A stretch of 24,961 nucleotides of DNA from a virus: positions 1-24,961 of the IMG/VR virus record IMGVR_UViG_3300025647_004826. One strand, 5' to 3'. How positions within the stretch are numbered: the first letter of the stretch is position 1; every line of letters begins with the position of its first letter. The translations under genes were made by a program, and so were the position numbers. Of the stretch, positions 6,601-23,591 are shown one piece after another. Below the pieces are notes generated by a model. It was not told where the DNA came from, ran no database searches, and saw only the letters and a list, made by a program, of their open reading frames with translations.

Positions 6601-9600
6601 TAAAAGATAAATCAGGTTCAGCTTTTCTTGGTAAATAAGTAAACTGAACTTCTTCTATTTTACCATCAGATTCTATTGGCTGAACATCTACATTATATCC
6701 AAGGTCAGGTATACCAAGAAGATCGACACTTCCAAATATACCATCCATGCCAAGTTCCTTCAGTGATAAAGACCATTGCTCTTCTTCTGAAACTTCGTTG
6801 TTTATATTTGTTGTGATTGAACTCCCTATGTTATTCATTTCTTCTTGAAGATACGCAGCAACTTTTGTTGGGAAAGCTCCTCTTTGGAAATCAGCAATAA
6901 ACGGAGTAAGTGCAAGACCAAGGAGCGGATTTGTTAAAAAGATTGCAGCCATTTGAGCATCAGTAGGTGAAAATGTTCCGTACCCATCAACGTAATTTGG
7001 TCTTAAAATTGCTCTTCTTGTATGCGCGGTAAGGGGAATGCCCATAGTGTCAGACAACATCATGTTGATTAAACCCCAATTATCTTCACCAGGACCGTTG
7101 CCAATCATGTCTTTTGAATAATCAACTTGTAACTGTTCAAAATCTCCACCAATCGCGAACGTTGTTGATTGTGATGCAACTTCGGACTCGTAAGGAATAA
7201 TGCCGTTATTACAACCAGGATCTGAAACTAACGGCGGCATTTGCTGCTGTAAATAACAAGCAATACCATCAGGCTTTGAAATACAATCCAAAACATTTGC
7301 AAAATCACCTAAATCCTCAAGACCTCTTGAGTTATCGCACATTTGAGAGATTTGTTCTGGTGATGCTCTGCCTTCTAATATTGAGAATCTTGTTTCACAA
7401 AAGTTTTCCACTAAAGCTGGATCCAAACAGATGCTTGGGTTTGCTGGACTATCATCTAAAATGTTGCCCAAAGATTGACCTAAAGAATCTCTAAAATCGG
7501 CTGGCATAAGCTTGCCCATATTGCCAAAAAAACTTCCAATTGCTTGTCTGTTTGGAATCGTAGATCTATAATCTGGATACTCATATTCAATAAGAGAATC
7601 AATTATTGAAAGAGTTTCGTCTGTTGCTTGCCCGAGGATTAACTGCGTTAACTCTGCTTGTGTTAGTGATGAACTAACATCTTCAGCAAATTGCAAAGTT
7701 TGTTCTGTATTTGCAAGAGCAGCAGAACCAACTCCGAGAGAAGCAACCATATCTATAATTGTATTATCAACGTCTTCGCTTGCTGCATTCTCTCCGCAAA
7801 TAGACTCTCTAATTAAGTTTACTAAATTTTGTCTTCCAGTTGAAAGCTGGGGGCTGTTCGACAAAATATCCCCTGCTAATTCTAGTCTATTACAAGTTGC
7901 GTTTCCAAGTGTTTGGCAAATCTTAACAATTAATTTAATTAAGATCTTCATTATTGTAACTTGAATTGTGCATCGAATAGCTGCGAAAAGGGATGCGGTC
8001 AAATCAAATCTAAGAGGCAACCAAACAAATGGATTTTGAAAATTTGGAAATGTTAGATCATCTATGTTCTCACAAAAAGGTAAATCAATTTCTTTAATAA
8101 AATCAATTATGCTTGGCTCGAAAAGAGGTGGCACTGGACAATCCACCAAAGCAATAATATTTGAAATTAAACGTGCGCCTGGGAATCGATTTAATTCATC
8201 TACTAATTCTAATAAGTTGTTTCCATAGACCTCAAGCATTGCTTGGATATAAGCTTCCAATACGATACTAGAACTCAATTTATTTGCCGCAGATGCCGGA
8301 TCTAGCTGACTAGCAAGTGTTCTTTTTTCTTGTTGCGTTTGTTGGTTACTGGAATTTGCTCCCGTCGTGTCATTTAAGCTTTCTGAACCAGCATCATTAT
8401 CTTCCCACGGAGGTAAAGCAGAAATATTTCCAGCAGCTATTGCATCAGAAATTTCTTGATTTGTTGAGCCTTCTTTAAAAATATCGCCACTTTCTAGCTT
8501 TTGCTTTACAAGGGCGTCTAGTTCTGCTTGTTTGTCTGGGGGCAAGCCTACAAATAAATCTCCAAAATTGGTTATTGACATTCCACGTAGAGCAGATTCA
8601 GTAATTTTAGAAAGTGATTCTTCAAGTGTCAGACCGCTCATCAAACAATTAATAACATCAATTAGCGCATCATAAAGACCACATAATTTAATATCGTCTA
8701 ACCCAAGCTCCCACAATTGATTAATGTCAAAATCGGTACTACTGCCAGTTGAACCGCCAGCAAAACAAGAAATAAAATTAATTTTGTCTAACGAACTAGA
8801 TCCTCCAATAAGAATCGTGTCACATAAATTTAAAAATGGTTGTTTGCCTTGTTCAAGCTCGGCGTAAGCTTGCTCTAAAGCCATCGCTTTCATATTTTGT
8901 TCAGCTTCGTCAAGATTTCCAACAGCCACAAGGGTTCTAACTTCTAACGAAAAATCTAGGTCGGCTGTAAACCTGTTTTCTCTTTTTGCTTCGCTTACAG
9001 ACTTACACAGCGATTCGTGGAACTTATAAGCAATAGCATCACCAATACCAAATACATCATCTAAAATATCTTGACCGAGTTGCTTTCCTTCTTCTGCAAG
9101 CGCACTTGCAATACAACTTCCGGCAGACAAATTAGCTGTTAAGTTATCGCCACCAGCGGAATAGACTTCTGGAAATGTATGTTTAATAACAAAATCAAGC
9201 CAAGGTAAGGGCTCTCTTGCTGTTAAGTCAGTTTCCATCTCTTTCATGCGAGAGAAATAATAAACTGCTGTTTGATCTTTCCACGCTTGCTTGCTGTTTA
9301 AATCGTTACACCTTTTCTGTCCCCAAACAATAGGCTTAGAACCACACGCTTCATAAAAAAACTCTATTTTCTTGACAACATACCGACTAAGATTTTGATC
9401 AAAAGTAATAGTAAATGTAGCTTCTGTAACTACATTTCTGCCTTTTAAGAATAGTCCATCTGTGCCTGGGATTGAATAATTGTATTTTGAAAAGAAAGCT
9501 CCAAGGTCGTCTATTAAAGACTTCATGCTTGAGTTGCCAAACCCAAAATCACCATAGTTGCCTAAGTTGAAAACACGATCATCGTCTAAAAATCGAAGAC

Positions 9601-10219
9601 TTTCTTCTTGAGTGAACTGATATGCTTTATAATAGCGGTTATAAAGACTAAGACCTTTACGAATTTTAAGTGCTAAAATGGCGATCTCATCACCAGAATA
9701 GGTAAATTCAATATCTCCAGCTTCTGTTTCTGATTCTTCTTCTGAATCTGATTCTCCAATAGCGTCCAGAACTTCAATTGGGACAGAGTAAAGTAATTTT
9801 AATTTAGAGAATTGTCGTGGATCAAGATAATAATCAGTATACTCAAGATTTTCTTTTATAAAAGAGCGAGTTCCTTCTGTGTCGTTTTTATTGTAAGACA
9901 ACAAAAGAAACTCAATTGCTTGATCAGAATAAGCATCATAAATATTATTTAAAGCGCTTTGAGCTTCACTATCTGACATTCCATCTGTATAGCCAGTATT
10001 TGATTCTGTTGTAGTAATAGTAATTTGGTATTGGCATTCTCGACCATTAAAATACGGCTCGTATTCCGTCAAGTTGTACCAAATAGGAATTATCGCATTT
10101 GGATCTGGAGTGCAAGTGGGACATTCTTTAACGTCTTCTATTCTTACTTCTTCTTTACAAGAATCGTTAAACCCATCACCATCAACATCTTGGAATGGTA
10201 AAAACTTTGATTCAGCCAT
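3671..10219 (-). CDS. Giant virion-associated protein (2182 residues), function unknown
   Basis: This single intact frame encodes roughly 240 kDa and is the largest gene in the window. The start is supported by AAAGGT just upstream of the ATG. Residues 11-19 read DVDGDGFND, a calcium-binding loop of EF-hand or thrombospondin-type-3 form. A Cys-x-x-Cys pair follows at about residue 34, then a DPNAIIPIW segment resembling N-termini of large structural proteins of marine T4-like phages. Much of the protein is acidic and Gln/Ser/Asn-rich. Three stretches are hydrophobic or helical, near residues 740-765, 1090-1115 and 1555-1580. The last ~40 residues are very basic. There is no signal peptide and no recognisable catalytic motif. 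It lies between the hub-like genes and gp25, so a tail or baseplate role is likely, perhaps a tape-like, hub-surrounding or ejected protein. I cannot assign a molecular function. Confidence 0.7.
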   Translation of the reverse strand: MAESKFLPFQDVDGDGFNDSCKEEVRIEDVKECPTCTPDPNAIIPIWYNLTEYEPYFNGRECQYQITITTTESNTGYTDGMSDSEAQSALNNIYDAYSDQAIEFLLLSYNKNDTEGTRSFIKENLEYTDYYLDPRQFSKLKLLYSVPIEVLDAIGESDSEEESETEAGDIEFTYSGDEIAILALKIRKGLSLYNRYYKAYQFTQEESLRFLDDDRVFNLGNYGDFGFGNSSMKSLIDDLGAFFSKYNYSIPGTDGLFLKGRNVVTEATFTITFDQNLSRYVVKKIEFFYEACGSKPIVWGQKRCNDLNSKQAWKDQTAVYYFSRMKEMETDLTAREPLPWLDFVIKHTFPEVYSAGGDNLTANLSAGSCIASALAEEGKQLGQDILDDVFGIGDAIAYKFHESLCKSVSEAKRENRFTADLDFSLEVRTLVAVGNLDEAEQNMKAMALEQAYAELEQGKQPFLNLCDTILIGGSSSLDKINFISCFAGGSTGSSTDFDINQLWELGLDDIKLCGLYDALIDVINCLMSGLTLEESLSKITESALRGMSITNFGDLFVGLPPDKQAELDALVKQKLESGDIFKEGSTNQEISDAIAAGNISALPPWEDNDAGSESLNDTTGANSSNQQTQQEKRTLASQLDPASAANKLSSSIVLEAYIQAMLEVYGNNLLELVDELNRFPGARLISNIIALVDCPVPPLFEPSIIDFIKEIDLPFCENIDDLTFPNFQNPFVWLPLRFDLTASLFAAIRCTIQVTIMKILIKLIVKICQTLGNATCNRLELAGDILSNSPQLSTGRQNLVNLIRESICGENAASEDVDNTIIDMVASLGVGSAALANTEQTLQFAEDVSSSLTQAELTQLILGQATDETLSIIDSLIEYEYPDYRSTIPNRQAIGSFFGNMGKLMPADFRDSLGQSLGNILDDSPANPSICLDPALVENFCETRFSILEGRASPEQISQMCDNSRGLEDLGDFANVLDCISKPDGIACYLQQQMPPLVSDPGCNNGIIPYESEVASQSTTFAIGGDFEQLQVDYSKDMIGNGPGEDNWGLINMMLSDTMGIPLTAHTRRAILRPNYVDGYGTFSPTDAQMAAIFLTNPLLGLALTPFIADFQRGAFPTKVAAYLQEEMNNIGSSITTNINNEVSEEEQWSLSLKELGMDGIFGSVDLLGIPDLGYNVDVQPIESDGKIEEVQFTYLPRKAEPDLSFTYYDNAKGLKATDESDFSWGFELQSFFGDLALNESGSVENIFSDNVRIRIYDYNNQNAKVNEINSDFIPPVFEGEGDEISSDAATSTAEKKDPSIITDLKYEFIGVDNTLTRIAPNGDSMELYLNDNYPSFIGQFGGDKPASPPQSTLFKEMLEMKNDDSITISDVNKLRAQVIKQFSKTVFTTISDYESDQSAWNYGAQFENLTEEDTAYGINQDGEWVPYADTGYSNRDMILGISYDQYKNDIAETPDKTRIFYLDPAKYGGNYVSPPLYIKPQTPEGWMGVVDVFFPELSACKPQIADVVNFESIQDMIDEIYPNIPEDERLKYDEDCIVELPYNRVMTRAAKASMQGLIMAATRIFISASMIKTLPTFSRFAPKFPQIFSSVYASFIVENMEKSFRDVKNPPWEIFNLFSDDEFWYSFLEQSVQTYAYLVDIGKIEAPPEVLDALFRLNDLQEEYEYPYKEERKEAVEIGEINRLTNLKNYRQKKNLEAVRDTEEDAKLILTDFVVQQLNEMGKNFMVNLKRINLEPDILDLDYYIFEKMCQGSTLTLNESLNVDGTYSATNGDLPTIPYEENEEVEEPYYTNGAQLTVSESNEGTRTVGQEYIGYYHVHIDSTTGLPIYMAGEYHDEEASQDILTPFANIVEVKVGDVPEYGSGFSYDQAQPFALQKYISINGERYSPTEASSEITSNENLDLLISEVYPGDMRLIEDESGNAVGIKGKLGVRYGLAFGTYYNGIYREITSVEIDALDLPLSDFKNLTGDSLNLLCLINHLKKDKDYILASQYVFGFNKLVAIAAIYNDVAMLPSIGEVTVEKGQTFKRSLDFDFGGKPGVQITTTEVNGIEIEKFGEPTQTQDIFGNITEYEATAPDGAWASYKDRAPGLFGGVGVLEWDNWDQELLKNSTYRIKKLFKNYYNSRDFDNAEFGNQSSPAQIEFKKLREALRPAPGKRLLPWWKRRKLRTNPFDANGNLCD

Positions 10220-13900: not shown

Positions 13901-14109
13901 TAGCTTACTGTGCTGTTTAGATCATCTTCTGAAATCTGCTCACCAGTAATGCGAACTGTTGGAGGGTTCATTACAACTAGCCCCTCTTCTGAAAGGTTTA
14001 GCTCAAAGCCCTTTAAAATAGGCACAATATCTAGCTGATGTAGTAGCGACTCTTGCAAAGCCATCATAATAGCACCAAGCGCTTGGTTTGATAATCTCAT
14101 GTTTTCCAT
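13900..14109 (-). CDS. Small conserved T4-like phage protein (69 residues), unknown function
   Basis: The start is taken at the ATG at 14109, because AAGGAGAT stands five bases upstream, the best ribosome site in the window. The frame is open up to 14169, but the extra 20 residues would overlap the cupin gene and lack such a site. The product has an amphipathic helix (LSNQALGAIMMALQESLLHQ) followed by a short beta-type part (GFELNLSEEGLVVMNPPTVRI). The whole resembles a small conserved protein of marine T4-like phages. There is no enzyme motif. It is the first core-type gene after the sugar module, one base from the cupin stop, and it is coupled to the zinc-ribbon gene downstream by TAATG. 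Its function is unknown. Confidence 0.8.
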   Translation of the reverse strand: MENMRLSNQALGAIMMALQESLLHQLDIVPILKGFELNLSEEGLVVMNPPTVRITGEQISEDDLNSTVS

Positions 14110-14110
14110 A

Positions 14111-14470
14111 TTAATCTCCTTTTTGAATTCTATAACTATCTGAATCAAAATGTTGAGTTGAAAACTCAAACAATTCAGTGTCTTCTAACGCTATCATTTG
14201 GTGTCTAAGCCCACGATATACATGGAAATTGTCGCCCGATCCAAGTATTATTTCCTGTGCTTTTTCAATATCATCTGTGTCTGAAAAAAGAACTTTTATT
14301 TTTCCAGATTGGATATAAAAAACTTCATCTTTTAGTTCATGATAATGCCAAGAGCATTTTTTGTCTTTGACAAAATAGAGAAGCTTTCCGCAATACTCTT
14401 CGCAGTTAACGATCCATTTTTCAAATCCCCAGCCTTTGGGGACAAATTTAATTTCCAAAGAAGTCTTCAT
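14111..14470 (-). CDS. Single-domain cupin, phosphomannose isomerase type II / sugar-isomerase-like
   Basis: This 119-residue protein is a one-domain cupin. Cupin motif 1 is complete, with His42, His44, Glu49 and Gly56 in HYHELKDEVFYIQSG. Motif 2 is present but loose, with the third histidine at His90 in GLRHQM. The four usual metal ligands are therefore there. The opening KGWGFEKW resembles the stand-alone cupin often labelled mannose-6-phosphate isomerase in phage and polysaccharide clusters. It may isomerise or bind a sugar phosphate, but such small cupins vary widely in function. The start at 14470 has AAAGGA eight bases upstream and overlaps the HAD gene by 23 bases, placing it at the end of the heptose-type trio. 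The fold is sure; the substrate is not. Confidence 0.8.
   Translation of the reverse strand: MKTSLEIKFVPKGWGFEKWIVNCEEYCGKLLYFVKDKKCSWHYHELKDEVFYIQSGKIKVLFSDTDDIEKAQEIILGSGDNFHVYRGLRHQMIALEDTELFEFSTQHFDSDSYRIQKGD
14114..14121 (-). promoter_or_regulatory. Strong ribosome binding site deciding the 14109 start
   Basis: The minus strand reads AAGGAGAT here, a near-perfect Shine-Dalgarno sequence four to five bases before the ATG at 14109. It lies inside the last codons of the cupin gene. It is the reason for preferring the shorter 69-residue product over the longer open frame starting at 14169. Confidence 0.85.
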
Positions 14471-14768
14471 CTTTCATTCCTTTGTCATCAATATAAAAAT
14501 CACCAGATGGTTTGCCTAAAAACAAACGATGATATTTAACACCCCATTCTTTTAGTTGTGATTTTGTTAAAACCTCAAAAGCCTCATAAGCAAAAGCAAT
14601 AGAATTTCCGCTTCTGCCCATACCTCTTGCTGTTAAAAAATAAATGGTATGTCCTTGGTCATATAACTTATTTACAGTGTCTATTCTGTCTTGTAGAGGC
14701 TCTGCTCTTGAATATTTTCCATTAGTATTGGTGCAAATTGTACCATCTATATCAAAAACATATGTCAT
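14448..14768 (-). CDS. Small HAD-superfamily phosphatase
   Basis: This 106-residue protein has all four HAD motifs: DIDGT with nucleophile Asp6 and Asp8, FLTAR with Thr46, a lysine at about Lys86, and YIDDKG with Asp94 and Asp95. It has almost no cap, so it should act on open or small phosphorylated substrates. Its start overlaps the stop of the nucleotidyltransferase gene as ATGA. In the heptose pathway a HAD phosphatase (GmhB) removes the 7-phosphate between the kinase and nucleotidyltransferase steps. The gene order here suggests the same job, although GmhB is longer (~190 residues). The closest type is the short capsule-biosynthesis phosphatase group. HAD membership is secure and the substrate is inferred. 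Confidence 0.85.
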   Translation of the reverse strand: MTYVFDIDGTICTNTNGKYSRAEPLQDRIDTVNKLYDQGHTIYFLTARGMGRSGNSIAFAYEAFEVLTKSQLKEWGVKYHRLFLGKPSGDFYIDDKGMKDEDFFGN

Positions 14769-15157
14769 TGTAAACCTACCAATATATTTGTTGTTGAGTA
14801 TCCTTCTATTCTATCAAAAAATTTTACTTCCTGCACATGTCTGGAGCCGATCACTCTTTTATCTTTGTAATCGGAACCTACCACCATTATTTCAGCACGA
14901 CTTAAAAGAATCTGTGTATCAAGCTCATCATCGTGGTTAAACACTCTTATTTCGTCAATGTACTTAATTGATTCAAGTAACATAACCCTATCTTCTATAG
15001 TGTTAAAAGGGCGCGACTCTCCCTTAGCGGCTCTAACTCTCTGGTCAGTATCAATTCCGACCACCAACCAATCACCAAGAGACTTAGCATATTTAAATAA
15101 TTCTATATGTCCTCGATGTAAAACGTCAAAACAACCGTTTGTCCATATAACTTTCAT
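14765..15157 (-). CDS. hldC: HldC/RfaE domain II-like nucleotidyltransferase (D-beta-heptose 1-phosphate type)
   Basis: This 130-residue protein is a complete cytidylyltransferase-fold domain. It has NGCFDVLHRGHIE with the nucleotide-binding His14-x-Gly-His17, then GIDTDQRVRAAKGESRPF, then GSDY, and a terminal YSTTNIL motif in the place of the ISSTxI signature. The RPFN-x3-DR segment is typical of RfaE domain II, which joins ADP to D-glycero-D-manno-heptose 1-phosphate. I chose the ATG at 15157 because it overlaps the kinase stop as ATGA. The longer frame to 15199 would add a cysteine-rich, unrelated leader inside the kinase gene. The neighbours are the matching kinase and a HAD phosphatase, as in a split HldE system. 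Nucleotide and exact sugar are not proven. Confidence 0.85.
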   Translation of the reverse strand: MKVIWTNGCFDVLHRGHIELFKYAKSLGDWLVVGIDTDQRVRAAKGESRPFNTIEDRVMLLESIKYIDEIRVFNHDDELDTQILLSRAEIMVVGSDYKDKRVIGSRHVQEVKFFDRIEGYSTTNILVGLQ

Positions 15158-15885
15158 ACTATAGTAACGCCTTTTTTCTGTACCACAATTGTAGCACATG
15201 TATTACCGAATTTTATAGATTTATGAATATTTTTAGATTTTACATATTCGGCAACCATAGCAGCAATAAAAGTATCACCAGCACCCGATGTGTCTTTGAT
15301 TTCTACTTTTGGTACTGGATAAATCATATTATTATACTTTGCCCCATCTGATCCCATTGTTACTATTAGGGTGTTTAATATTTCTTCATCTAATATGTGT
15401 TTTGTTTTTTCATATTCATCAAGGTTAATCTTAATATAATTTATGCTTTTACACCACGAGCCTAAAATCTTTTTTGTATCTAAAAATACACAATCATGAT
15501 TTTCTCCAATAAACTTTATATCTTCTTCCGTAAGAAAACCTTTGTTATAATCAGAAATTAGAATAACCGCATACTGAGAAAAATCTATTTTCTTAATATC
15601 ACATTTATCATAAGAATTATCATTTTTATCAAGTCTCATAAACATATGATTTGTCTTTTCATCAATAAATCTAGTTTTTGTAATATTTTTAAAATTATTG
15701 TTTGTGTGTAGAGTGCATTCAACTTCTAGAGATTGTAGATTTTGATAAACATTATAAGCCATTCCTCCATTTTCAATTTTATACAAAGGATTAAAAACAG
15801 GTACGGGGGCTTCAGGACACAACCTTTTACATTCTCCGTACATAAATATATCTAAACAACTCTCTCCTATAACAAGAACTGTCAT
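15154..15885 (-). CDS. Short PfkB-family kinase, HldA/RfaE domain I-like
   Basis: This 243-residue protein starts with VLVIGESCLDIFMYG and CPEAPVPVF, the characteristic opening of RfaE domain I heptose-7-phosphate kinases. It ends with the PfkB signature DTSGAGDTFIAAM, which carries the catalytic aspartate and the anion hole. A glycine pair at NGGMAYN stands in for the usual GGAANVA sugar-binding loop. It is about 75-90 residues shorter than HldA, mainly in the middle, so the lid region may be reduced. The start at 15885 is set by a TAATG overlap with the preceding gene and by AAGGAT seven bases upstream. The longer frame to 15909 lies inside that gene. It is followed by the matching nucleotidyltransferase. 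Kinase family is certain and heptose specificity is likely. Confidence 0.85.
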   Translation of the reverse strand: MTVLVIGESCLDIFMYGECKRLCPEAPVPVFNPLYKIENGGMAYNVYQNLQSLEVECTLHTNNNFKNITKTRFIDEKTNHMFMRLDKNDNSYDKCDIKKIDFSQYAVILISDYNKGFLTEEDIKFIGENHDCVFLDTKKILGSWCKSINYIKINLDEYEKTKHILDEEILNTLIVTMGSDGAKYNNMIYPVPKVEIKDTSGAGDTFIAAMVAEYVKSKNIHKSIKFGNTCATIVVQKKGVTIV

Positions 15886-17048
15886 TATATATCCTTTATA
15901 ACGTTGCAAATAAATTCTATCTCTTCTTCGGTCAATTCGGGGTAATTAGGCACAAAAAATCCTCTAGAATGAATTGCATCGCTTTGAAAATCAGCGAATT
16001 CATTATACAAATCAATCCAAAATGGATGTCTTCCTAAATTTCCAGCACTAAAAATTCTTGTCTCGATACCGTTTTCAACCAAACGACTTACTATTTCTTT
16101 TCTATGTTGCGTACTGTTAGCTAAGGCACCAAAAGAAATAGATACCGGGTACTCAACTCCCCAATCTTGAAACTCAACATAGCCTTGAAGCTTTTTAGCA
16201 TACAGTAAATGATTTCTATTTCTGTTTTTAGATGCCCACTCTGCTTTTTTGATTTGTCTAATTCCCAAAAAAGCCTGCAAGTCTGTTGACCTTAAATTGT
16301 ATCCGGGTACAAAAAATGTAAAAGGAGAATGAAAATCGTCAATATTCCTTTCTTTCATCATGTCACTATAAGTTTCCTCATCCAGATCTTTAGCCCAACC
16401 GTGACTACGCAACATTAAAAGCATATCATAAAGTTTCTTATCATTGACGTTTACCATACCACCTTCAATTGTGGAAAGCTGATGTCCAAAATAAAATGAA
16501 AAAGAAGACATATCACCGATAGTACCAACCATTGTGCCATCACTATATCTAGCCCCAAGTGCTGCACAAGCGTCCTCTAGAAGTACAAAACCATATTTTT
16601 CTTTCAGTTTCAACAACCTTTCTTTATGATGAGGAACACCCAATACTTGTACAAATATAACAGCATCAGGTCTTTCGGTTTCACAAATTTGCTCCAACTG
16701 ATCCAGATCAATACCAAAAGTTTTTGGGTCCGCACCACACATAATTGGGTGTAATCCTAGCTGAATAGCTGGTGAAATCGTTGTAACCCATCCAACCGAT
16801 GGAACAACTATTTTCTTATTTGGTATTAGACCACATTGAACTGCTGTGGCTATCATTAAAAGATTAGCCGAAGACCCAGAATTATTGAATACTGAATATT
16901 TTGTACCGATATATTCAGCCCAATCTTTTTCTACCTGTAAAGTCAAATCTCCTTTTGTTAGTCTAGGATAACTTTTTAGCCAATTGCACAGCGCATCGAC
17001 ATCTTCATCATTAATTGTTTCTTTAGCCAACGGATATCTTATTTTCAT
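15885..17048 (-). CDS. ColD-like PLP-dependent sugar 3-dehydratase (DegT/DnrJ/EryC1 fold, catalytic Lys replaced by His)
   Basis: This 387-residue protein has the DegT/DnrJ/EryC1 fold and is close to the length I recall for E. coli ColD (388). The PLP phosphate loop NNSGSSANLL and the ring-stacking or pairing segment LLEDACAALGA (Asp159) are present. The lysine that normally forms the internal aldimine is replaced: the segment reads SFYFGHQLSTIEGG with His189. ColD (GDP-4-keto-6-deoxy-D-mannose 3-dehydratase) and RfbH/E1 of CDP-3,6-dideoxyhexose routes share this His. The FGH-x-x-STIEGG form is nearest to ColD. Such enzymes remove the 3-hydroxyl to give a 3,6-dideoxy-4-keto sugar. There is no ferredoxin-type Cys cluster, unlike RfbH. 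It overlaps the RmlC-like gene as ATGA and the kinase as TAATG. The His is seen directly; the substrate is inferred. Confidence 0.88.
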   Translation of the reverse strand: MKIRYPLAKETINDEDVDALCNWLKSYPRLTKGDLTLQVEKDWAEYIGTKYSVFNNSGSSANLLMIATAVQCGLIPNKKIVVPSVGWVTTISPAIQLGLHPIMCGADPKTFGIDLDQLEQICETERPDAVIFVQVLGVPHHKERLLKLKEKYGFVLLEDACAALGARYSDGTMVGTIGDMSSFSFYFGHQLSTIEGGMVNVNDKKLYDMLLMLRSHGWAKDLDEETYSDMMKERNIDDFHSPFTFFVPGYNLRSTDLQAFLGIRQIKKAEWASKNRNRNHLLYAKKLQGYVEFQDWGVEYPVSISFGALANSTQHRKEIVSRLVENGIETRIFSAGNLGRHPFWIDLYNEFADFQSDAIHSRGFFVPNYPELTEEEIEFICNVIKDI

Positions 17049-17572
17049 TTAATCTCCTTTAAAAATTTAGATTTTTTGTCTCGTTCTGATAAAACCGGCA
17101 ATGCCTTTATTAAAGGCCATTTAATGTCTAATATTGGTTCGTCCCATCTTAGAGAAAATTGGTTTTCTGGAGAAACATAGTTTTCTGACCATTTATAATA
17201 GAACAAGCAATCTTCAGTTAAACAGTAGTGTCCATTCAAGAAATTTTTAGGAATAAAAACAGCAAAATTGCTATCTTCGTCCATCTCTATCTCAAATTTT
17301 TGTAAATATTGTTCACTTTGTTTATCATAATTTACAATAGCTAAATATATTTTTCCTTTAAGGCAGTATATCAATTTATCATTTATTGAATCTCCGTGCA
17401 AGCCCCTTAATACATTTTTTTTTGATTTTGTCAATTTATCAATTTTAAAATCTGGAAATTGGTTTACATCAAATAAATTTGTGATATTTCCTCTATTGTC
17501 TGAGAAGTTTTCTAAATATATTTTATACACTCCATTTAATGGAAGCTCTTCTTTTACAAACAACATTTTCAT
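17045..17572 (-). CDS. RmlC-like sugar 3(,5)-epimerase / cupin isomerase
   Basis: This 175-residue protein matches the RmlC family in length and pattern. It has VLRGLHGD with the catalytic-position His59, LKGKIYLAIV, FIPKNFLNGHYCL with His115, KWSENYVSPENQFSLRW with Tyr132 in the acid position, and the closing DIKWP and LSERD. RmlC enzymes epimerise 4-keto-6-deoxy nucleotide sugars at C3, C5 or both. The phage version has GD after RGLH instead of the usual FQ, a variant that also occurs in 3-epimerases and 3,4-isomerases, so regiochemistry is open. The first ATG at 17572 is used, with GGAG eleven bases upstream; a second ATG at 17566 is possible. It directly precedes the ColD-like dehydratase, so both probably act on one 4-keto sugar. 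Confidence 0.85.
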   Translation of the reverse strand: MKMLFVKEELPLNGVYKIYLENFSDNRGNITNLFDVNQFPDFKIDKLTKSKKNVLRGLHGDSINDKLIYCLKGKIYLAIVNYDKQSEQYLQKFEIEMDEDSNFAVFIPKNFLNGHYCLTEDCLFYYKWSENYVSPENQFSLRWDEPILDIKWPLIKALPVLSERDKKSKFLKEIK

Positions 17573-17597
17573 ACAATATTGTACTCCACAAATCAGT

Positions 17598-18386
17598 TCA
17601 TTTGTTATTATTTTGCATATTATTATATGCTTTTATCATTCGATCTGCAACTATATTTAAATATAGATTTTTGGCTTGTTGCGCGACTAAATCATAATAG
17701 TACAAATTTTCAGGGTTTTTCATACCATCCATTTCCATATTGTTATAAGATCCCCCAAATCCTGATGCTCCATCGGTGGGATTCCGACTGAAAAAATCGG
17801 GGACTGTTCTCCACAAATCTATCCCGTAAGACTCATACATTAAGATATGCAATAATGTTTTCCAATTATCTCCATTACATTGCCAACCGTAATTTTGTAA
17901 AACTTCAATACATCTTACTGAAAAGCATGGCAAACTAACACCTTCATTGTGTTTCCATACTTCCATGATTTGCGGTTCTCTCCAGCGACCTTTATAAAGC
18001 TCTACTCTTGGACGGCGGGGACCAACAAAACAATATTCATCTTTTATTGATAAGATATCATCAATAAAACCTTTTTTTATAAATGTGAAATCATCAGCAC
18101 AAAGTAGAACAAATGTTGATTTTTGGTTTCTTTGTGAAAACAAATAAAAATGATCTAAATGAAAACCATGACGACCTTCGCCTCTTGACCAAACAAAAGT
18201 TTTAACACTAAAAGGAAATTTATTAAAATATTCTTGAGGAGGGCGTAAATCATCATCAGAATCATATTTTATCAAAACCTCACAATTTTCCGCATTTCCT
18301 CCACATTGCTGTAAACTTGTCAGTAGTTGATCTATATTGCTATCTTTATTACCTTTTACTCTTGAAGTCAATATCAATGTTAACAC
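17598..18386 (-). CDS. GT-A type glycosyltransferase
   Basis: This 262-residue protein has the outline of a small GT-A glycosyltransferase. A beta strand at the start (LTLILTSRVKG) leads into a helix, a second strand VLIKYDSDDDL, and then STFVLLCADDFTFI with an acidic triad (Ala97-Asp98-Asp99) in the DxD position that binds metal and nucleotide sugar. The C-terminus contains WRTVPDFF and a Gly-rich SGFGGSYNN turn likely to lie near the acceptor site. It has no membrane segment. The start is a GTG at 18386, because GAGAGGT stands at good distance and no ATG is available at the N-terminus of the fold. It comes 10 bases after another glycosyltransferase gene, so the two probably add successive sugars. 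Donor and acceptor are unknown. Confidence 0.75.
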   Translation of the reverse strand: MLTLILTSRVKGNKDSNIDQLLTSLQQCGGNAENCEVLIKYDSDDDLRPPQEYFNKFPFSVKTFVWSRGEGRHGFHLDHFYLFSQRNQKSTFVLLCADDFTFIKKGFIDDILSIKDEYCFVGPRRPRVELYKGRWREPQIMEVWKHNEGVSLPCFSVRCIEVLQNYGWQCNGDNWKTLLHILMYESYGIDLWRTVPDFFSRNPTDGASGFGGSYNNMEMDGMKNPENLYYYDLVAQQAKNLYLNIVADRMIKAYNNMQNNNK

Positions 18387-18391
18387 AAAAT

Positions 18392-18398
18392 ACCTCTC
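18392..18398 (-). promoter_or_regulatory. Ribosome binding site supporting a GTG start
   Basis: The minus strand reads GAGAGGT here, then TATTTT, then GTG at 18386. The site overlaps the stop of the preceding glycosyltransferase gene. It is what makes the non-ATG start credible. Confidence 0.65.
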
Positions 18399-19167
18399 AA
18401 ATTTCTAAATAAAATTTCTTCATATCTTCTAGATTATCAAAAACACTGTTTTTGTCATAGTAGTTGTTATTCAAATTACCAACCAGATTGTATAGAACAA
18501 TCATATCGTAAACATCATAAGTTGTTTTAGCGTTTCTCCCAGCCCAATCCCACAAAGTAATTTCTCTGCATTCTATTGTTGGTTCCCCCATGTGACCAAG
18601 ATAAATTGACATATAGTTGTCTGCTACATGGTGTAGGAAATGAGGATGAAATATTTTTTCTCCAAACAACTCATAAGTTTTTCTGTCCATTGTTGGGAAT
18701 TTCATAATATAATTTCTATTATGTTTTCTTTCGGCTTTGGTTATTGGGTGTATTACACTTGGCGGAACTAATTCGGCTGGTAATTTATAGTAATGCCCGT
18801 TATTTTTAACCGTAACTGATAAGCTAGTAACTTTATATATTCTATCATAATATAAAGGAGATTGTAAGAAATTAATAACAGAAAACAAATTTTTTGACGG
18901 CAAATAATCATCTACCAAAACACAAAGATAATCTCCATTTGCCTGAGAAGCAAGAAAATTAATTGGGCGTATTGATCCTTCGTTGTCAGTATCTTTAAAA
19001 TATTTAATATTTTTACTATCAATACCAGAATTGGTAGAAGAAACTAAAATTTCATAATCAAAACCCAAGCTGTCCATACGATTAATAGTTAATATTGTTT
19101 TATCTAAATATTTTTCGTGTGACCTGTTGGTTGGTATCAAAAAAGAAATATCTTTTTTACTTTTCAT
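18397..19167 (-). CDS. Family 2-like GT-A glycosyltransferase
   Basis: This 256-residue protein starts with the typical family 2 strand-helix ISFLIPTNRSHEKYLDKTI, then YEILVSSTNSG, and ANGDYLCVLVDDYLP with an acidic Val-Asp-Asp at ~85-87 in the DxD position. The second half is His-, Asn- and Tyr-rich (FHPHFLHHVADNYMS) and may form the acceptor side. No membrane helix is seen. The ATG at 19167 is preferred over the one at 19188: GGGGTGA sits nine bases before it, whereas the upstream ATG has no ribosome site and only adds MSGVIII. It overlaps the thiamine-enzyme beta gene by 11 bases and is followed by another glycosyltransferase. The fold is well supported; specificity is unknown. Confidence 0.78.
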   Translation of the reverse strand: MKSKKDISFLIPTNRSHEKYLDKTILTINRMDSLGFDYEILVSSTNSGIDSKNIKYFKDTDNEGSIRPINFLASQANGDYLCVLVDDYLPSKNLFSVINFLQSPLYYDRIYKVTSLSVTVKNNGHYYKLPAELVPPSVIHPITKAERKHNRNYIMKFPTMDRKTYELFGEKIFHPHFLHHVADNYMSIYLGHMGEPTIECREITLWDWAGRNAKTTYDVYDMIVLYNLVGNLNNNYYDKNSVFDNLEDMKKFYLEI

Positions 19168-19696
19168 TATAATAATCACCCCACTCAACTAAAATGGTAC
19201 TTTTTCCATCTGTCCTGTGATATGCTTTATGATATGCTGGAAAAATATCTTCTGGCTCATCTAGTCTTATAACTTCTACTGTTGTCAACATATTTCTAAA
19301 TGCATCGGTAAAGTCTCCAGTGTGTTGTATTTGCGGATTTAAAGGATTTTCAGACCCAATGCCAACCCGAATAATTGCTTTTGGAGCATATTCTCCGTGT
19401 GTATAAATTGAGTATTTGTCCAAATGATTAACCAATTGATTTACTGCTAAAAGAAGAAAATTCCAACGCGGGTATATACTAATCGGAACAGTTCCAGCTA
19501 TGCTTAAGCCATTTGTGATTCCCATTTGCATTTCTTCATTAACAGGCATTTCCAACAATTTATTTCTTGGAACTTCTTTCAAAGTATTTGTCATTGCCGT
19601 TCCTTTATATTCAACCGCTTGACCCAAAAATAAAGTATTATTTTGTTCTCCCAAATAAGACATAGCACGGCTTAATTCATCAAAATATTTTCCCAT
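19157..19696 (-). CDS. Thiamine-diphosphate enzyme, E1 beta-like subunit (Pyr domain only)
   Basis: This 179-residue protein matches the pyrimidine-binding (Pyr) domain of E1-beta and transketolase-type enzymes. The segment EMPVNEEMQMGITNGLSIAG contains Glu54, the position of the conserved glutamate that activates the cofactor aminopyrimidine. It is followed by PISIYPRWNFLLLAVNQLVNHLDK, the usual pocket and subunit-contact region. Full E1-beta proteins are about 325 residues and add a transketolase C-terminal domain; that domain is missing here, although the gene has a clean stop at 19157. AAGGAG stands before the ATG at 19696. It follows the alpha subunit by 12 bases, so the two should form an active heteromer. 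No lipoyl partner or E2 gene is present in the window. Function is likely acyl or ketol transfer, or decarboxylation. Confidence 0.85.
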   Translation of the reverse strand: MGKYFDELSRAMSYLGEQNNTLFLGQAVEYKGTAMTNTLKEVPRNKLLEMPVNEEMQMGITNGLSIAGTVPISIYPRWNFLLLAVNQLVNHLDKYSIYTHGEYAPKAIIRVGIGSENPLNPQIQHTGDFTDAFRNMLTTVEVIRLDEPEDIFPAYHKAYHRTDGKSTILVEWGDYYNEK

Positions 19697-19708
19697 ATTG
19701 TTTTCTCC

Positions 19709-20320
19709 TTAAAATTGAACTCTGATTCCAGCACCAGCATGAGGATATTTGTCTAATTTATATTTATAATAAGTAACATAATCGTCATTAATACCTTCAT
19801 AAGTTAGCTTTTCCATATTCCATGTTGCTCTTGTGTCGGTGCAAACTGATTTTCCATTATCTTCAATTATAAAGTGTATCGGCAATTTGTGATTACGAGC
19901 ATATTTTATACACTCATGGGCAGCGCCAGTCTCGGAAGTCATTTCTCCCATAAAACAATATACTTTATTTTTTCCGCCTCGACGTTTAATATCAATGGCT
20001 ATGCCTAATGAAACAGACAATTGTCCAGTTACAATTCCAGAACAAAGAATTTTGTGTTCTTTAAAACTTAAAGATATCGATCTCCCTTCTAAGATCGCTT
20101 CCTTCAATTGTTTTGGTGGAACACCTTTTAAAAGACACTGATAATGGCTTCTCCAAGAACATAAAACCCAATCTTCTTTTCCTATTTTATGTTTTTTAAA
20201 AACATCAATTATTTGTTCTTCATTACCATTATATAAATGAACAGGAGCTTTAATCATGGCTGAATTAAAACAATCTGCTATATCATTTTCGAATTCTATC
20301 AATTCTTCTTTTGTTAACAT
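19709..20320 (-). CDS. Thiamine-diphosphate enzyme, E1 alpha-like subunit (PP domain)
   Basis: This 203-residue protein is the diphosphate-binding (PP) half of a split thiamine enzyme. The binding motif is present in altered form: MGEMTSETGAAHE at ~124-136, where the common GDG reads GEM, and IIEDNGKSVCT with Asn155 some 30 residues later. These hold the metal and diphosphate. Earlier, WVLCSWRSHYQCLLKGVP corresponds to the E1-alpha substrate loop with a conserved His. Usual E1-alpha proteins are 320-370 residues, so this is a reduced form. The ATG at 20320 immediately follows the stop of the radical SAM gene, whose end supplies AGGTGAT as ribosome site. It is followed by the Pyr subunit. Asp-to-Glu at the metal-binding position is conservative and activity is plausible. 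The substrate is unknown. Confidence 0.85.
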   Translation of the reverse strand: MLTKEELIEFENDIADCFNSAMIKAPVHLYNGNEEQIIDVFKKHKIGKEDWVLCSWRSHYQCLLKGVPPKQLKEAILEGRSISLSFKEHKILCSGIVTGQLSVSLGIAIDIKRRGGKNKVYCFMGEMTSETGAAHECIKYARNHKLPIHFIIEDNGKSVCTDTRATWNMEKLTYEGINDDYVTYYKYKLDKYPHAGAGIRVQF

Positions 20321-21835
20321 TTAATCACCTAATATTTTCCTCTTTAATTTATGTTCGCACATTTTCACAATTCCATCGTGGGTTTCTTGACCGAATTTTT
20401 GCTTAATGTAACTTAGGTATTTTGGATTTTGATAATACTCGTTAAAAGCATTATCTCTAAATTTTACTACTTCTGAAGAAGTAATATATTTTGTACTTAA
20501 AGGAAGTATATCATAGGAATGCTGTGAATATCCACTATAAGTTTCTGGTAAGGGTAAATTATTTTTGATAGCATCCAAATATAGTCGTGAACCGGGGTAT
20601 GCCATAGAACAATAAAAATTGGCAAATTCACAATTTAAGTCTTTTGCTAGTTCTAAAGTTTCTCTCATTGTGCTGTGATCATCTTCCGGTAGACCAAAAA
20701 TAAAATTCCCTATTACATTAATTCCAGAATCTTGTATTTCTTTAACTAAATCAGAAATCTTTACATCTGTAAACTTTCCTTTAACAACATCTTTTCTAAC
20801 TACACCGTTACCAGACTCGATACCAAGAGCTAACCATTCTATACCAGCTTTCTTTAGAGTGTCTAGGTAAGATTTTTTAACTGTATCAATTCTAGCATAT
20901 GCCCAAATATTAAAATCATATTTTCTGTCTATTATTAGATTACACAATTTTAAAAAATGATCTTGATTTAAAACAAACATTTCGTCAGCAATTTTGATAT
21001 TTCTAATCCCCATTTGATGTATCTTATCAAATTCATTTATAGCATATTCTGGATTCCAAAATCTAAATTTGTTTCTTTCATAATTCCAGTTCTCAACATT
21101 ATTATTTCCAAACGGGGCGTTAATGCAACAAAAACTACATCTAAATGGACAACCCAAACTAGTATAAAGAGAGGCAAAAGGCATTGTTTGATTTTTGTTA
21201 GACATCCCATGCCAATTTGAAGTTCTATATTTTTCCATTGGCAACAAATCCCAAGCCATACCCGGAAGTTCTGTTTGCATCTCTTCTTGTGTTATTAATG
21301 GGGCAGGTTTAGTAAAACAAATTTTATCTCCATCCCTATACCATAAACCGGGAACCTTACTTAGCTGATAAGGATCCGATAAATTATCAACTTCCATTAA
21401 TGCTGTTAATGTTCTGGGTCCTTCTCCCTGACAAACAAAATCAGTTTTTTCGTCTTGCATTGTTTTTCTAGAAACAGCAGACGGATAAAGTCCTGTTATT
21501 AGTACTTTTCTTTCTGGATTGTTTTGTTTTAATATTTCTAAGCAATTGTGGACACCTAGCATATTCTGAGCCGATGCTGATGGCTGCTGTCCATAGACAA
21601 CAAACACTACTAACTTTGGATCAAAATCTTCTATTTTTAAATAACTTTCGACTGGACTTAGCTGCTCAGCCTCACAATCTAATATGGCTACATTTTCATA
21701 TCCTTTCGAGCGGACATGATTTGCCAACAAAGCAGCCCATATTGGTGGCTCTATAGCTGAGTATTTTTTACTCAGACTCTGATAAATTTGTTTTGAAGCA
21801 TTCGGATGCACAAATAGAATGTCCAATTTATTCAT
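20321..21835 (-). CDS. B12-binding-type radical SAM protein (class B layout)
   Basis: This 504-residue protein has two clear parts. Residues ~1-150 have the Rossmann-like cobalamin-binding layout (LDILFVHP, VVFVVYGQ, KVLITGLYPSA, FVCQGEGP). I do not see a DxHxxG motif, so B12 would bind without histidine ligation or not at all. Residues ~220-440 are a radical SAM barrel with the cluster motif SLGCPFRCSFC (Cys229, Cys233, Cys236), then IKIADEMF, ALGIESG and GNFIFGLPEDD. Class B enzymes often methylate unreactive carbons or rearrange rings. In a sugar cluster C-methylation or deoxygenation is possible. The start at 21835 has AAGGA at seven bases, while the frame to 21865 lies inside the SDR gene. 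Family is certain; reaction unknown. Confidence 0.88.
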   Translation of the reverse strand: MNKLDILFVHPNASKQIYQSLSKKYSAIEPPIWAALLANHVRSKGYENVAILDCEAEQLSPVESYLKIEDFDPKLVVFVVYGQQPSASAQNMLGVHNCLEILKQNNPERKVLITGLYPSAVSRKTMQDEKTDFVCQGEGPRTLTALMEVDNLSDPYQLSKVPGLWYRDGDKICFTKPAPLITQEEMQTELPGMAWDLLPMEKYRTSNWHGMSNKNQTMPFASLYTSLGCPFRCSFCCINAPFGNNNVENWNYERNKFRFWNPEYAINEFDKIHQMGIRNIKIADEMFVLNQDHFLKLCNLIIDRKYDFNIWAYARIDTVKKSYLDTLKKAGIEWLALGIESGNGVVRKDVVKGKFTDVKISDLVKEIQDSGINVIGNFIFGLPEDDHSTMRETLELAKDLNCEFANFYCSMAYPGSRLYLDAIKNNLPLPETYSGYSQHSYDILPLSTKYITSSEVVKFRDNAFNEYYQNPKYLSYIKQKFGQETHDGIVKMCEHKLKRKILGD

Positions 21836-21843
21836 TTTTTTAT

Positions 21844-21848
21844 TCCTT
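21844..21848 (-). promoter_or_regulatory. Ribosome binding site deciding the radical SAM start
   Basis: The minus strand reads AAGGA here, seven bases before the ATG at 21835, and overlaps the TAA stop of the SDR gene. It favours the 504-residue product over a longer frame starting at 21865 inside the SDR gene. Confidence 0.6.
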
Positions 21849-22782
21849 AATAATTCGCATACCACGGTGATTCTATAATAGAATAAGCTTTTATCAATTG
21901 TATAATACCATCATCCAAATCATATTTGCAGTCAAATCCTTTATTATAAATCTTCTGACTACTAACTTCATAATCACGAACATCTGGATCAGTATTTATT
22001 TCCGCTTTTATAATTTGTAAAGGTATGTGCTCTTGAATTTTTTTAGCTAGCTGTAGCTTATTCATATTTATTCCATCGTGACCCACATTATATGTCTCAT
22101 TTTTACAATTATCCCAATTATCAATTACAAATTTAAAAGATCTACATGCATCTTGTAAGTGCAAATAATTTCTCATAAATTCACATTCGTATAAAACTAA
22201 TACGCCTTCTCTCAGTGCCTTAAGAACAAAATTATTTACCAATAGATCTGTTCTCATTCTAGAACCGGGTCCGAATACAGTTGCAAATCTAAAAGTGACA
22301 TGATTTTCTATTTCTCGATAAGCCTTTTCTGCCTGAACTTTTGTTGTTCCATATAGAGAAACTGGATTAAGAGGAGATTCTTCTGTACACATGGAGCCAT
22401 CTTTGGAGGTTCCATAACCAGAATTAGTGCAAGGATAAATCACCATTTGATCTTTTGATTTGTTATCGGCAATCCATTGATTTACCTCATAATTTATTTC
22501 TCTTGCTCCTCGTTTGTCTTTTTCGCACAACGGGAAGCCGACTAAAGCTGCCAAGGGTATAATAACATCTGCTTGTGCCATATGCTTTCGTAAAAAATTT
22601 ATATTTCTTACATCCCCTTTTTCAAAATTAAAATTTGAATCAACTGTATATCTTAACAGAGACGTAGCATCATACATAAGATTATCTATACAAGTAACTT
22701 GATGACCGTCTCTTAGTAAATGTCCCGTCAATTCGCTACCGATATATCCAGCGCCACCTGTAATCAATATTTTTTTACTCAT
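21847..22782 (-). CDS. NAD-dependent epimerase/dehydratase (extended SDR) for nucleotide sugars
   Basis: This 311-residue protein is a complete extended SDR. The dinucleotide motif TGGAGYIGS (Gly9, Gly12, Gly15) is followed by CIDNL, KGDVRN and PLAALVG. The active site has Ser121 in TNSGYG and Tyr144-x3-Lys148 in SLYGTTK. The sugar-binding region includes TVFGPGSRMRTDLLVN and FMRNYLHLQDA. These proteins act on NDP-hexoses as 4,6-dehydratases, 4-epimerases or 4-keto reductases. A 4,6-dehydratase usually has Asp-Glu after the catalytic Ser or Thr, and here the pattern is Gly-Tyr, so an epimerase or reductase is more likely. Its ATG at 22782 overlaps the previous stop as TAATG. No separate 4,6-dehydratase is visible in the window, so the 4-keto sugar must come from the host or from genes outside it. 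Confidence 0.87.
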   Translation of the reverse strand: MSKKILITGGAGYIGSELTGHLLRDGHQVTCIDNLMYDATSLLRYTVDSNFNFEKGDVRNINFLRKHMAQADVIIPLAALVGFPLCEKDKRGAREINYEVNQWIADNKSKDQMVIYPCTNSGYGTSKDGSMCTEESPLNPVSLYGTTKVQAEKAYREIENHVTFRFATVFGPGSRMRTDLLVNNFVLKALREGVLVLYECEFMRNYLHLQDACRSFKFVIDNWDNCKNETYNVGHDGINMNKLQLAKKIQEHIPLQIIKAEINTDPDVRDYEVSSQKIYNKGFDCKYDLDDGIIQLIKAYSIIESPWYANY

Positions 22783-23084
22783 TAAAACTCCAATCTTCCA
22801 ATTAAAATGTCTTTAAACATAATCCAATCACACAATTTTGCTTTTATGGGGTGACTAAACGCGGCTGGTTTATTTTTTTCAAAAAAGTAATGCCCAGACC
22901 AAGCAAAAGGGTATACTACAAAAGGTGCTAAAAACAACAATAACCAAAGTTTAAGGTATACAACCATAGCAATAAATATTATTGTTGCAATCTGTCCTAG
23001 TATGTGTGTTCTTCTGGTCCATCTATTTTGATGTAAGGTTAGATAATATTCATAATATTCACTAAGACTCATATCTTTATTCAT
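22782..23084 (-). CDS. Mpo1/DUF962-like membrane protein
   Basis: This 100-residue protein matches the Mpo1-like (DUF962) family. It has YYLTLHQNRWTRRTHILG with His18 and His27, then two hydrophobic helices at residues ~30-48 and ~48-62, then FAWSGHYFFEKNKPAAF with His65 and SHP with His78. Yeast Mpo1 is an iron-dependent dioxygenase that shortens 2-hydroxy fatty acids by alpha-oxidation, and its conserved histidines bind the iron. All four appear to be kept here. I take the ATG at 23084, which has GGGAG upstream and overlaps the preceding stop by 8 bases. An ATG at 23072 is a possible alternative. A phage copy could alter host membrane or LPS lipids, but function in bacteria is poorly known. 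Confidence 0.78.
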   Translation of the reverse strand: MNKDMSLSEYYEYYLTLHQNRWTRRTHILGQIATIIFIAMVVYLKLWLLLFLAPFVVYPFAWSGHYFFEKNKPAAFSHPIKAKLCDWIMFKDILIGRLEF

Positions 23085-23502
23085 TCCAACTAATCTCCCA
23101 ATCTTTGAATTCTGCTGCCAGACAATCGATTTTATAATCTTTCCTGCCACCTACAATTTCTTGAATTTTATTTTTAGCAGTATTTCGAATTCCATTTAAT
23201 CCGTGCGTCAACTCTAGATTGTTGCCGTCTTTAATACCTTTACGGTAATTCGACTCGTTATGCCAAATGTGTAAATTCATTTGTGAAAGTACTACGATAG
23301 CTCTAATCGTTTTGGCATCAACTACCATATGTCCTTCTGAAGATTGTTTTTCTTCTAAAATCATCTGGATATCATACAAGATATCTGAAATTTCTTGTGC
23401 GTATTCATCTTTATGCTCTGAAATAAAGACTTCTTTTAACTGTGCGATACTAAGTCTGTCAACTAGTTCCGACAGTGTTGGGAGATATTTCCTATTTGTC
23501 AT
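23077..23502 (-). CDS. Conserved phage protein of unknown function (141 residues)
   Basis: This protein is soluble and largely helical. Its most distinctive stretch is IRAIVVLSQMNLHIWHNES, followed by LTHGLNGIRNTAKNKI, and it ends in DCLAAEF and WEISW. The N-terminus (KYLPTLSELVDRLSIAQLKEV) reads as an amphipathic helix. I recognise it as resembling small proteins of marine T4-like phages but know no function, and it has no catalytic motif. The ATG at 23502 has AAGGA eight bases upstream. A consensus sigma70 promoter lies 30-60 bases before it, so this is the first gene of the long downstream operon. Its stop overlaps the Mpo1-like start by 8 bases. It may be a core gene at the border of the sugar module and not part of it. 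Confidence 0.8.
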   Translation of the reverse strand: MTNRKYLPTLSELVDRLSIAQLKEVFISEHKDEYAQEISDILYDIQMILEEKQSSEGHMVVDAKTIRAIVVLSQMNLHIWHNESNYRKGIKDGNNLELTHGLNGIRNTAKNKIQEIVGGRKDYKIDCLAAEFKDWEISWNE

Positions 23503-23533
23503 TTGGGTGTTCCTTTTTTAATAGAATAAACAT

Positions 23534-23562
23534 ATTATAGCGCATATTAAACTGCATTTCAA
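23534..23562 (-). promoter_or_regulatory. Sigma70-type promoter at the head of the downstream operon
   Basis: On the minus strand TTGAAA (23557-23562) is followed by a 17-base spacer and a perfect TATAAT (23534-23539). Transcription would start near 23527, leaving about 25 bases before the ATG at 23502. It lies in the largest gene-free gap of the window (23503-23591). It is a host-type promoter, not a T4 late box (TATAAATA), so the downstream genes could be read early in infection by unmodified host polymerase. Confidence 0.72.
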
Positions 23563-23591
23563 TATAATAATCATTATTCTTGTTATCACAT

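Follow-up and report, generated by a model that had tools for sequence, protein, structure and literature searches.

A widespread sugar operon of a marine phage probably makes an unusual heptose that is 3-deoxy and possibly branched, not a 3,6-dideoxyhexose

Described pathways closest to the locus

ColD-type enzymes carry a catalytic histidine whose role and mechanism have been reviewed (PMC8987622). In the Campylobacter jejuni HS:5/HS:11 pathway, a ColD-type C3-dehydratase and a C5-epimerase act on 4-keto-6-deoxy-heptose, and GDP-3,6-dideoxy-heptose is formed (PMC10440746). Additionally, Cj1427, a Campylobacter GDP-heptose C4-dehydrogenase that acts on GDP-α-heptose, has been combined in vitro with a ColD-type C3-dehydratase to give GDP-3-deoxy-heptoses, which were described as novel (PMC10680097). 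With regard to sugar branching, a 2025 review describes three thiamine superfamilies that take ketone acceptors, namely the decarboxylase (YerE-like), transketolase and aKADH2 superfamilies, all of which branch sugars, and the substrate of YerE is itself the product of a 3-dehydratase (PMC12247030). The papers found contain no phage example of thiamine-dependent sugar branching, and a literature search for phage colitose or 3-dehydratase genes gave no match.

The locus described here lies in the window, that is, the whole stretch of 24,961 nucleotides of viral DNA that was analysed (IMG/VR record IMGVR_UViG_3300025647_004826). It shares with the HS:5/HS:11 pathway a ColD-type enzyme and a putative C5-epimerase, probably acting on 4-keto-heptoses, but that pathway uses a 4,6-dehydratase where the phage has a Cj1427-like C4-dehydrogenase; the C6 oxygen would consequently stay in the phage product, and no SDR reductase is seen in the phage. 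The two enzyme types of the Cj1427 and C3-dehydratase mixture are co-encoded in the phage. In the mixture, the enzymes did not come from one and the same serotype, and what was combined there in vitro seems to be paired naturally in the phage operon. Finally, in yersiniose biosynthesis (RfbH/E1 and YerE) and in the aKADH2 systems (AviB1/AviB2 and Pau11/Pau12), a thiamine enzyme acts after the deoxysugar enzymes and adds a two-carbon branch to a 4-keto sugar, as may be the case in the phage. The thiamine enzymes of these systems are longer, however, and their substrates are attached sugars or nucleotide sugars of other kinds.

The dehydratase gene and its family

The gene at the centre of the analysis and its most informative codon are the following.

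15885–17048, minus strand: ColD-type PLP/PMP-dependent NDP-4-ketosugar 3-dehydratase of 387 aa with a DegT fold, in the ColD clade; ColD is the best PDB match by both sequence and fold
16482–16484, minus strand (read 16484–16482): CAT codon of His189, which corresponds to ColD His188 and to the aminotransferase lysine

A preliminary description of this DNA had located the gene correctly without giving its strand; the ORF, which is intact and contains the active-site segment SFSFYFGHQLSTIEGG, is read from the minus strand, while the plus strand has many stops over the same positions. The protein is a full-length member of the DegT family (Pfam DegT, 221.6 bits, E 2e-65, residues 14–384). Among PDB entries, ColD structures come first (E 4e-53 over residues 3–385, and about 1e-52 for the structures as a group), followed by RfbH/E1 (3bcx) and then by lysine-dependent enzymes.

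The alignment proposed in the preliminary description, with ColD, Salmonella RfbH and lysine-dependent enzymes (E. coli ArnB and WecE and three phage DegT proteins), bears out its claim of a histidine at the PLP-lysine position, as His189 shares a column with ColD His188 and, in ArnB and WecE, with the PLP lysine. The identity of this column is confirmed by the ColD mutant structures 3b8x and 3gr9 (H188N and H188K). In the alignment, the Schiff-base lysine of the lysine-dependent DegT sugar aminotransferases is not present, His189 standing in its place; a PLP lysine elsewhere in the segment was looked for, and the segment contains no other lysine. The codon of His189 is two changes away from a lysine codon.

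In the tree made from the same set of proteins, the window protein is within the ColD clade (support 100/97), and the RfbH-like group (96/97) and the lysine group (99/97) are both separate from it. Although identity to ColD (E. coli WbdK; 2gms, 2r0t, 3b8x, 3gr9) is only 29%, most active-site residues are shared. Among the positions compared, which follow the published ColD numbering, the matches are Trp87 (W88 in ColD), Asp159 (D159), Ser184 (S183), His189 (H188), His216 (H215), Phe243 (F240), Asn251 (N248) and Glu329 (E329), and the departures are Lys220 for R219, Gly188 for S187 and Ala162 for E162. The whole fold is also shared: with the AlphaFold model (pLDDT 91.9, the His loop at 187–193 being below 50 and modelled without cofactor), the top 11 PDB matches in Foldseek were all ColD, with a TM of about 0.87. 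Residue, tree and fold thus agree with the earlier proposal of a ColD-type 3-dehydratase. To judge by these sequence features, the gene product very likely catalyses C3-dehydratase chemistry, and it is a divergent member of an already known kind of enzyme.

Operon content and the probable substrate

The cassette genes of the window, apart from the dehydratase gene, are listed below.

14111–14470, minus strand: cupin protein, a conserved downstream neighbour (profile match, relatives)
14448–14768, minus strand: small HAD phosphatase (EcbF-BcbF/HAD-IIIA, weak match)
14765–15199, minus strand: nucleotidyltransferase like HldE/RfaE domain II (heptose-1-phosphate adenylyltransferase; TIGR02199, 115 bits, below the curated cut-off)
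15154–15909, minus strand: PfkB kinase like HldE/RfaE domain I (heptose-7-phosphate kinase; TIGR02198, 116 bits, below the curated cut-off), short at 251 aa
17045–17572, minus strand: RmlC-like cupin epimerase, whose gene has a 4-nt overlap with that of the dehydratase, nearest to C. jejuni GDP-4-keto-heptose 3-/3,5-epimerases
17598–18386, minus strand: probable glycosyltransferase-like protein without a Pfam match, assigned by context only
18397–19188, minus strand: family 2 glycosyltransferase (Pfam)
19157–19696, minus strand: E1-β-like thiamine-diphosphate subunit, PYR domain, with the family-invariant Glu54 and His125
19709–20320, minus strand: E1-α-like thiamine-diphosphate subunit, PP domain, with the cofactor motif G(D/E)M...EDN
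20321–21865, minus strand: B12-binding radical SAM enzyme, recurrent in the operon
21847–22782, minus strand: Cj1427-like NDP-heptose C4-dehydrogenase, an extended SDR (303 bits, full length, to 6vo6)
23592–24782, minus strand: family 2 glycosyltransferase; the window holds its C-terminal part, and a longer contig encodes 543 aa

The preliminary description expected a 3,6-dideoxyhexose as the product. This is not supported for the phage, and the neighbours of the dehydratase gene point to 4-keto-heptoses. For instance, the epimerase scores 88 bits to 8dcl/7ani/8dco versus 71 bits to RmlC (1dzr). The Cj1427-like SDR and 6vo6 have the motif TNSGYG in common, where 4,6-dehydratases have an acidic (Asp/Glu) pair. 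A C4-dehydrogenase of the Cj1427 type is present in 35 of 43 relatives as well as in this operon. The candidate genes for NDP-heptose synthesis in the window are those of the HldE-like kinase and nucleotidyltransferase, both under their curated cut-offs, and no isomerase for this synthesis was recognised in the window with Pfam and NCBIfam profiles. Considering this gene content, we put the chance that the dehydratase acts on a heptose at about even. As for the nucleotide, the HldE-like pair suggests ADP and a β-heptose, versus GDP-α-heptose for Cj1427.

It is also conceivable that deoxygenation of host-made GDP-4-keto-6-deoxymannose leads to GDP-colitose or to a different 3,6-dideoxyhexose, the kind of product first proposed. 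ColD is the closest characterised enzyme, and GMD together with a fucose-synthase/ColC-like SDR is found beside 8 of the 43 close relatives, beside most members of the 41–46% clade and also in S-CAM7 and ACG-2014f; given the true GMD (at least 354 bits) in eight relatives, some family members may use GDP-4-keto-6-deoxymannose. However, a colitose pathway was looked for and not found in the window and in two contigs that are near-identical to it (50.8 and 66.8 kb): there was neither GMD or another 4,6-dehydratase nor an SDR-type C4 reductase, including any ColC/fucose-synthase-like one in the two contigs. Both contigs are identical to the window over the cassette, and the sole extended SDR in each whole contig is the Cj1427-like gene at 21847–22782; the colitose reading is consequently unsupported here. 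ColD itself, moreover, is a distant relative at the identity given above, and the constant companion of the dehydratase is the Cj1427-like SDR, not GMD. Such a product is therefore rather unlikely in this phage. A mutual exclusion of GMD and the Cj1427-like SDR within 8-kb flanks was also considered and dropped, because GMD-bearing records also have the SDR, which is consequently read as a constant partner.

Thiamine-dependent enzymes in the operon

The model of the E1-α-like subunit matches PDH E1 α. Both E1 halves are short (203 aa for α and 179 aa for β) and have no transketolase C-terminal domain; Pau11 and Pau12, which are subunits of the AviB1/AviB2 type, are far longer (325 and 345 aa). 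In relatives, the same slot is occupied by full-length E1 subunits (L033, L034, L049, L050), by a split transketolase (L024, L030, L039) or by an ALS/YerE-like enzyme (L029, L031, L035, L036, L037), one example of each type having been confirmed by Pfam and NCBIfam; these are the three thiamine classes for which branching of ketosugars is known. The ALS/YerE-like enzyme best matches JanthE (YerE-like), only slightly above ALS.

Whole records of the 43 relatives contain both the SDR and a thiamine enzyme in 34 cases and one of them in three (thiamine enzyme only in L041 and L045, SDR only in L044); the six with neither are mostly contigs cut near the dehydratase gene. A search seeded by E1-α alone returned 80 loci, in which 64 of 66 examined DegT ORFs were of the His type, and the remaining two, with lysine, were extra ArnB-like genes in loci that also hold a His-type gene. 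Among 32 non-redundant E1-α loci with at least 6 kb on each side, a His-type DegT gene and a Cj1427-like SDR were each found in 31, a radical SAM enzyme in 28, the epimerase and the HldE-like kinase in 19 each, and GMD in six. The 32nd locus is on the contig of L012, where a His-type gene lies about 10 kb away and starts at the edge of the stretch analysed around E1-α. As many of the E1-α-linked dehydratases are just 35–40% identical to the comparison set, this linkage does not just reflect a common origin within one phage group. The enzyme family, the histidine, most active-site residues and what the operon contains and conserves are direct readings of the sequence. We give thiamine-dependent branching of the dehydratase product slightly less than an even chance.

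The dehydratase and the thiamine-enzyme block could instead serve two separate sugars, the shared operon being one glycan cassette. In the window-like clade, a variable stretch separates the SDR-radical SAM-thiamine block from the dehydratase-HldE block by several kb, so that they could be two pathways, and S-SM2 and P-TIM68 have an E1-like gene with no dehydratase listed. Nevertheless, divergent loci reshuffle gene order and yet keep the content: in L047, the SDR, dehydratase, E1-α, E1-β and epimerase genes are almost consecutive, and the His-type gene is within 120 nt of E1-β in 20 of the E1-α-seeded loci. We regard two independent sugars as about equally unlikely as a colitose-type product.

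The E1-like protein of the cyanophage isolates S-SM2 and P-TIM68 (L183, L184) is a fused "transketolase central region" protein, and it is accompanied by a carbohydrate kinase, an HldE-A-like gene and a phosphoheptose isomerase gene.

In the window, the radical SAM gene (20321–21865, minus strand) sits between the Cj1427-like gene and the thiamine slot, and C-methylation is possible.

Alternative chemistries of the dehydratase

The preliminary description anticipated that routine annotation would call the gene an aminotransferase, and PHROG 3139 and several RefSeq entries do so; most entries for phage homologues are labelled "aminotransferase" or "hypothetical protein". The family is indeed named after aminotransferases, and SpnQ, a dehydratase that transaminates when its reductase is missing (PMC8987622), suggests how an aminotransferase, or a dehydratase/aminotransferase hybrid without reductase, might exist despite the histidine. 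However, under the same no-reductase conditions ColD and E1 gave no transamination, and that of E1 H220K was non-catalytic only (PMC8987622). Additionally, the histidine is invariant in independently found relatives, versus a retained lysine in the lysine control proteins. It was kept in all viral relatives at 71–100% identity, which had been collected with patterns leaving out the His site; these relatives, the tblastn phage records and the E1-α-seeded loci are independent evidence for it, while the 80 loci collected with the pattern FSFYFGH are not. With histidine in the lysine column and a clade apart from the lysine enzymes, an ordinary aminotransferase was rejected, and transamination as the natural reaction seems very unlikely.

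The earlier proposal had also named the Lys-to-His change as a hallmark of both ColD and RfbH; the window protein is of the ColD type and not of the RfbH type. An RfbH/E1-type enzyme would have a [2Fe-2S] cluster and a reductase partner, and RfbH is the best NCBIfam model for the window protein, at 195.9 bits, but this is far under the 423-bit cut-off. In the alignment, the window protein does not have the cysteine motif of the cluster: the columns of Cys251, Cys253 and Cys261 of the RfbH-like group contain K, a gap and D in the window protein, and Cys193, which is common to it and the RfbH-like group, is found in ColD, too, which also has no Fe-S cysteines. Salmonella RfbH itself departs from ColD at W88, H215, R219 and E329. 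Given these columns and the separate clade, the Fe-S type was rejected as extremely improbable. The same holds for a degenerate or non-functional gene copy, which was raised since histidine replaces the catalytic lysine and for which nothing in favour was found, as the ORF is intact, dN/dS among closer relatives is 0.033–0.035 (about 0.035), pN is far under a saturated pS and the active-site segment is invariant.

L030 and L039 (10285–11640 in both) encode a further His-type dehydratase, which is of the RfbH type and has the Fe-S cysteines. Its gene adjoins an HldE-A-like gene, and these phages have it besides their ColD-type dehydratase.

Proposed pathway

The best explanation as a whole, C3-dehydration of an NDP-4-keto-heptose followed by probable C-branching, is given a probability of roughly 45%. 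The substrate, its nucleotide, the sequence of steps, the branching and the use of the product in the infection are inferred. The 4-keto substrate would most likely arise when the Cj1427-like dehydrogenase oxidises C4 of a nucleotide-linked heptose, with no 6-deoxygenation. In the dehydratase, PLP and glutamate would first give PMP, which would form a ketimine with the C4 ketone of the nucleotide sugar; His189 would then deprotonate the cofactor at C4′, the hydroxyl at C3 would depart, and hydrolysis would release a 3-deoxy-4-keto sugar and ammonia. The RmlC-like enzyme would epimerise C5 and/or C3, and the E1-α/β pair would probably carry out a thiamine-dependent C–C ligation onto the 3-deoxy-4-keto sugar. 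The resulting C4-branched 3-deoxy sugar could enter a surface glycan, plausibly host LPS, through the phage glycosyltransferases; this use is suggested by those genes and by published views of pelagimyophages that are relevant to host LPS modification (PMC7029224).

We therefore consider that this widespread operon of a marine phage probably makes an unusual seven-carbon sugar, 3-deoxy and possibly branched, and not a 3,6-dideoxyhexose. A more detailed version would have it naturally make a C4-branched 3-deoxy-heptose through C4 oxidation, C3 deoxygenation, C5 epimerisation and carbon branching by any of the three thiamine enzymes that replace one another, with a possible methylation by the B12 radical SAM enzyme, to rebuild the host surface in infection; in all its particulars, this is doubtful. 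The type of enzyme is known, and the operon combination is new.

A common phage "aminotransferase" gene is almost certainly a deoxygenase, so that glycan pathways of phages are at present read incorrectly. A C4-dehydrogenase, a 3-dehydratase, an epimerase and a thiamine carboligase of interchangeable type recur together, and this set predicts a specific sugar, the first part of which has so far been made only from mixed enzymes of different bacteria. Should the prediction hold, phages would offer a wealth of enzymes for heptoses of the branched and 3-deoxy kinds, and infecting phages would put chemically unusual sugars on their hosts.

Distribution among phages

The earlier proposal considered a phage with such a sugar pathway unusual, which does not hold for the enzyme: at least 547 IMG/VR stretches encode relatives of the dehydratase, and tblastn found relatives in 77 phage records, 65 of them at 80% query coverage or more. 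Isolates are among the carriers. In S-CAM7 and ACG-2014f, GMD, GDP-fucose synthase and a His-type homologue are consecutive, and the S-CAM7 homologue is annotated as CDP-4-keto-6-deoxy-D-glucose-3-dehydrase. These cassettes resemble the present one in having a phage-borne ColD-like gene among glycan genes, but they are fed by GMD, have no adjoining E1 pair, and their homologues are 30–34% identical to the window protein. A colitose-like cyanophage cassette is thus already in the databases, and the enzyme alone is consequently not new.

Within the bacterial genomes covered by the search, the one match to the dehydratase is a lone, intact His-type gene, 71% identical, in a contig of a chlamydial MAG (L016, 8001–9176). 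It lies among chromosomal genes (Lon-like, DnaJ-like), the other cassette genes being absent, which suggests transfer between phage and bacterium.

Other features of the window

No near DNA match was found among named phages, and the baseplate protein of the window is nearest, distantly, to those of Microcystis and Flavobacterium phages. Between the baseplate genes and a VanY-like protein, a phage protein of 2182 aa (3671–10219, minus strand) is encoded for which there is no convincing Pfam match. Upstream in the same phage (L097; contig G001, 1–14000), a run of leucine-rich-repeat-like proteins shares the N-terminal tag MKITKTKLKQIIKEEVVKLL.

The glycan cassette (14000–24000) has a GC content of 0.31–0.33, versus about 0.37 in the structural genes. 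It includes an Mpo1-like protein (22782–23150, minus strand; PF06127, 2-hydroxy fatty acid dioxygenase family, 98 bits), which is also found in L030, L033, L034, L036, L037 and L049. A 141-aa protein (23077–23502, minus strand) is often 75–85% conserved across otherwise distant cassettes and is often encoded directly before the Cj1427-like SDR.
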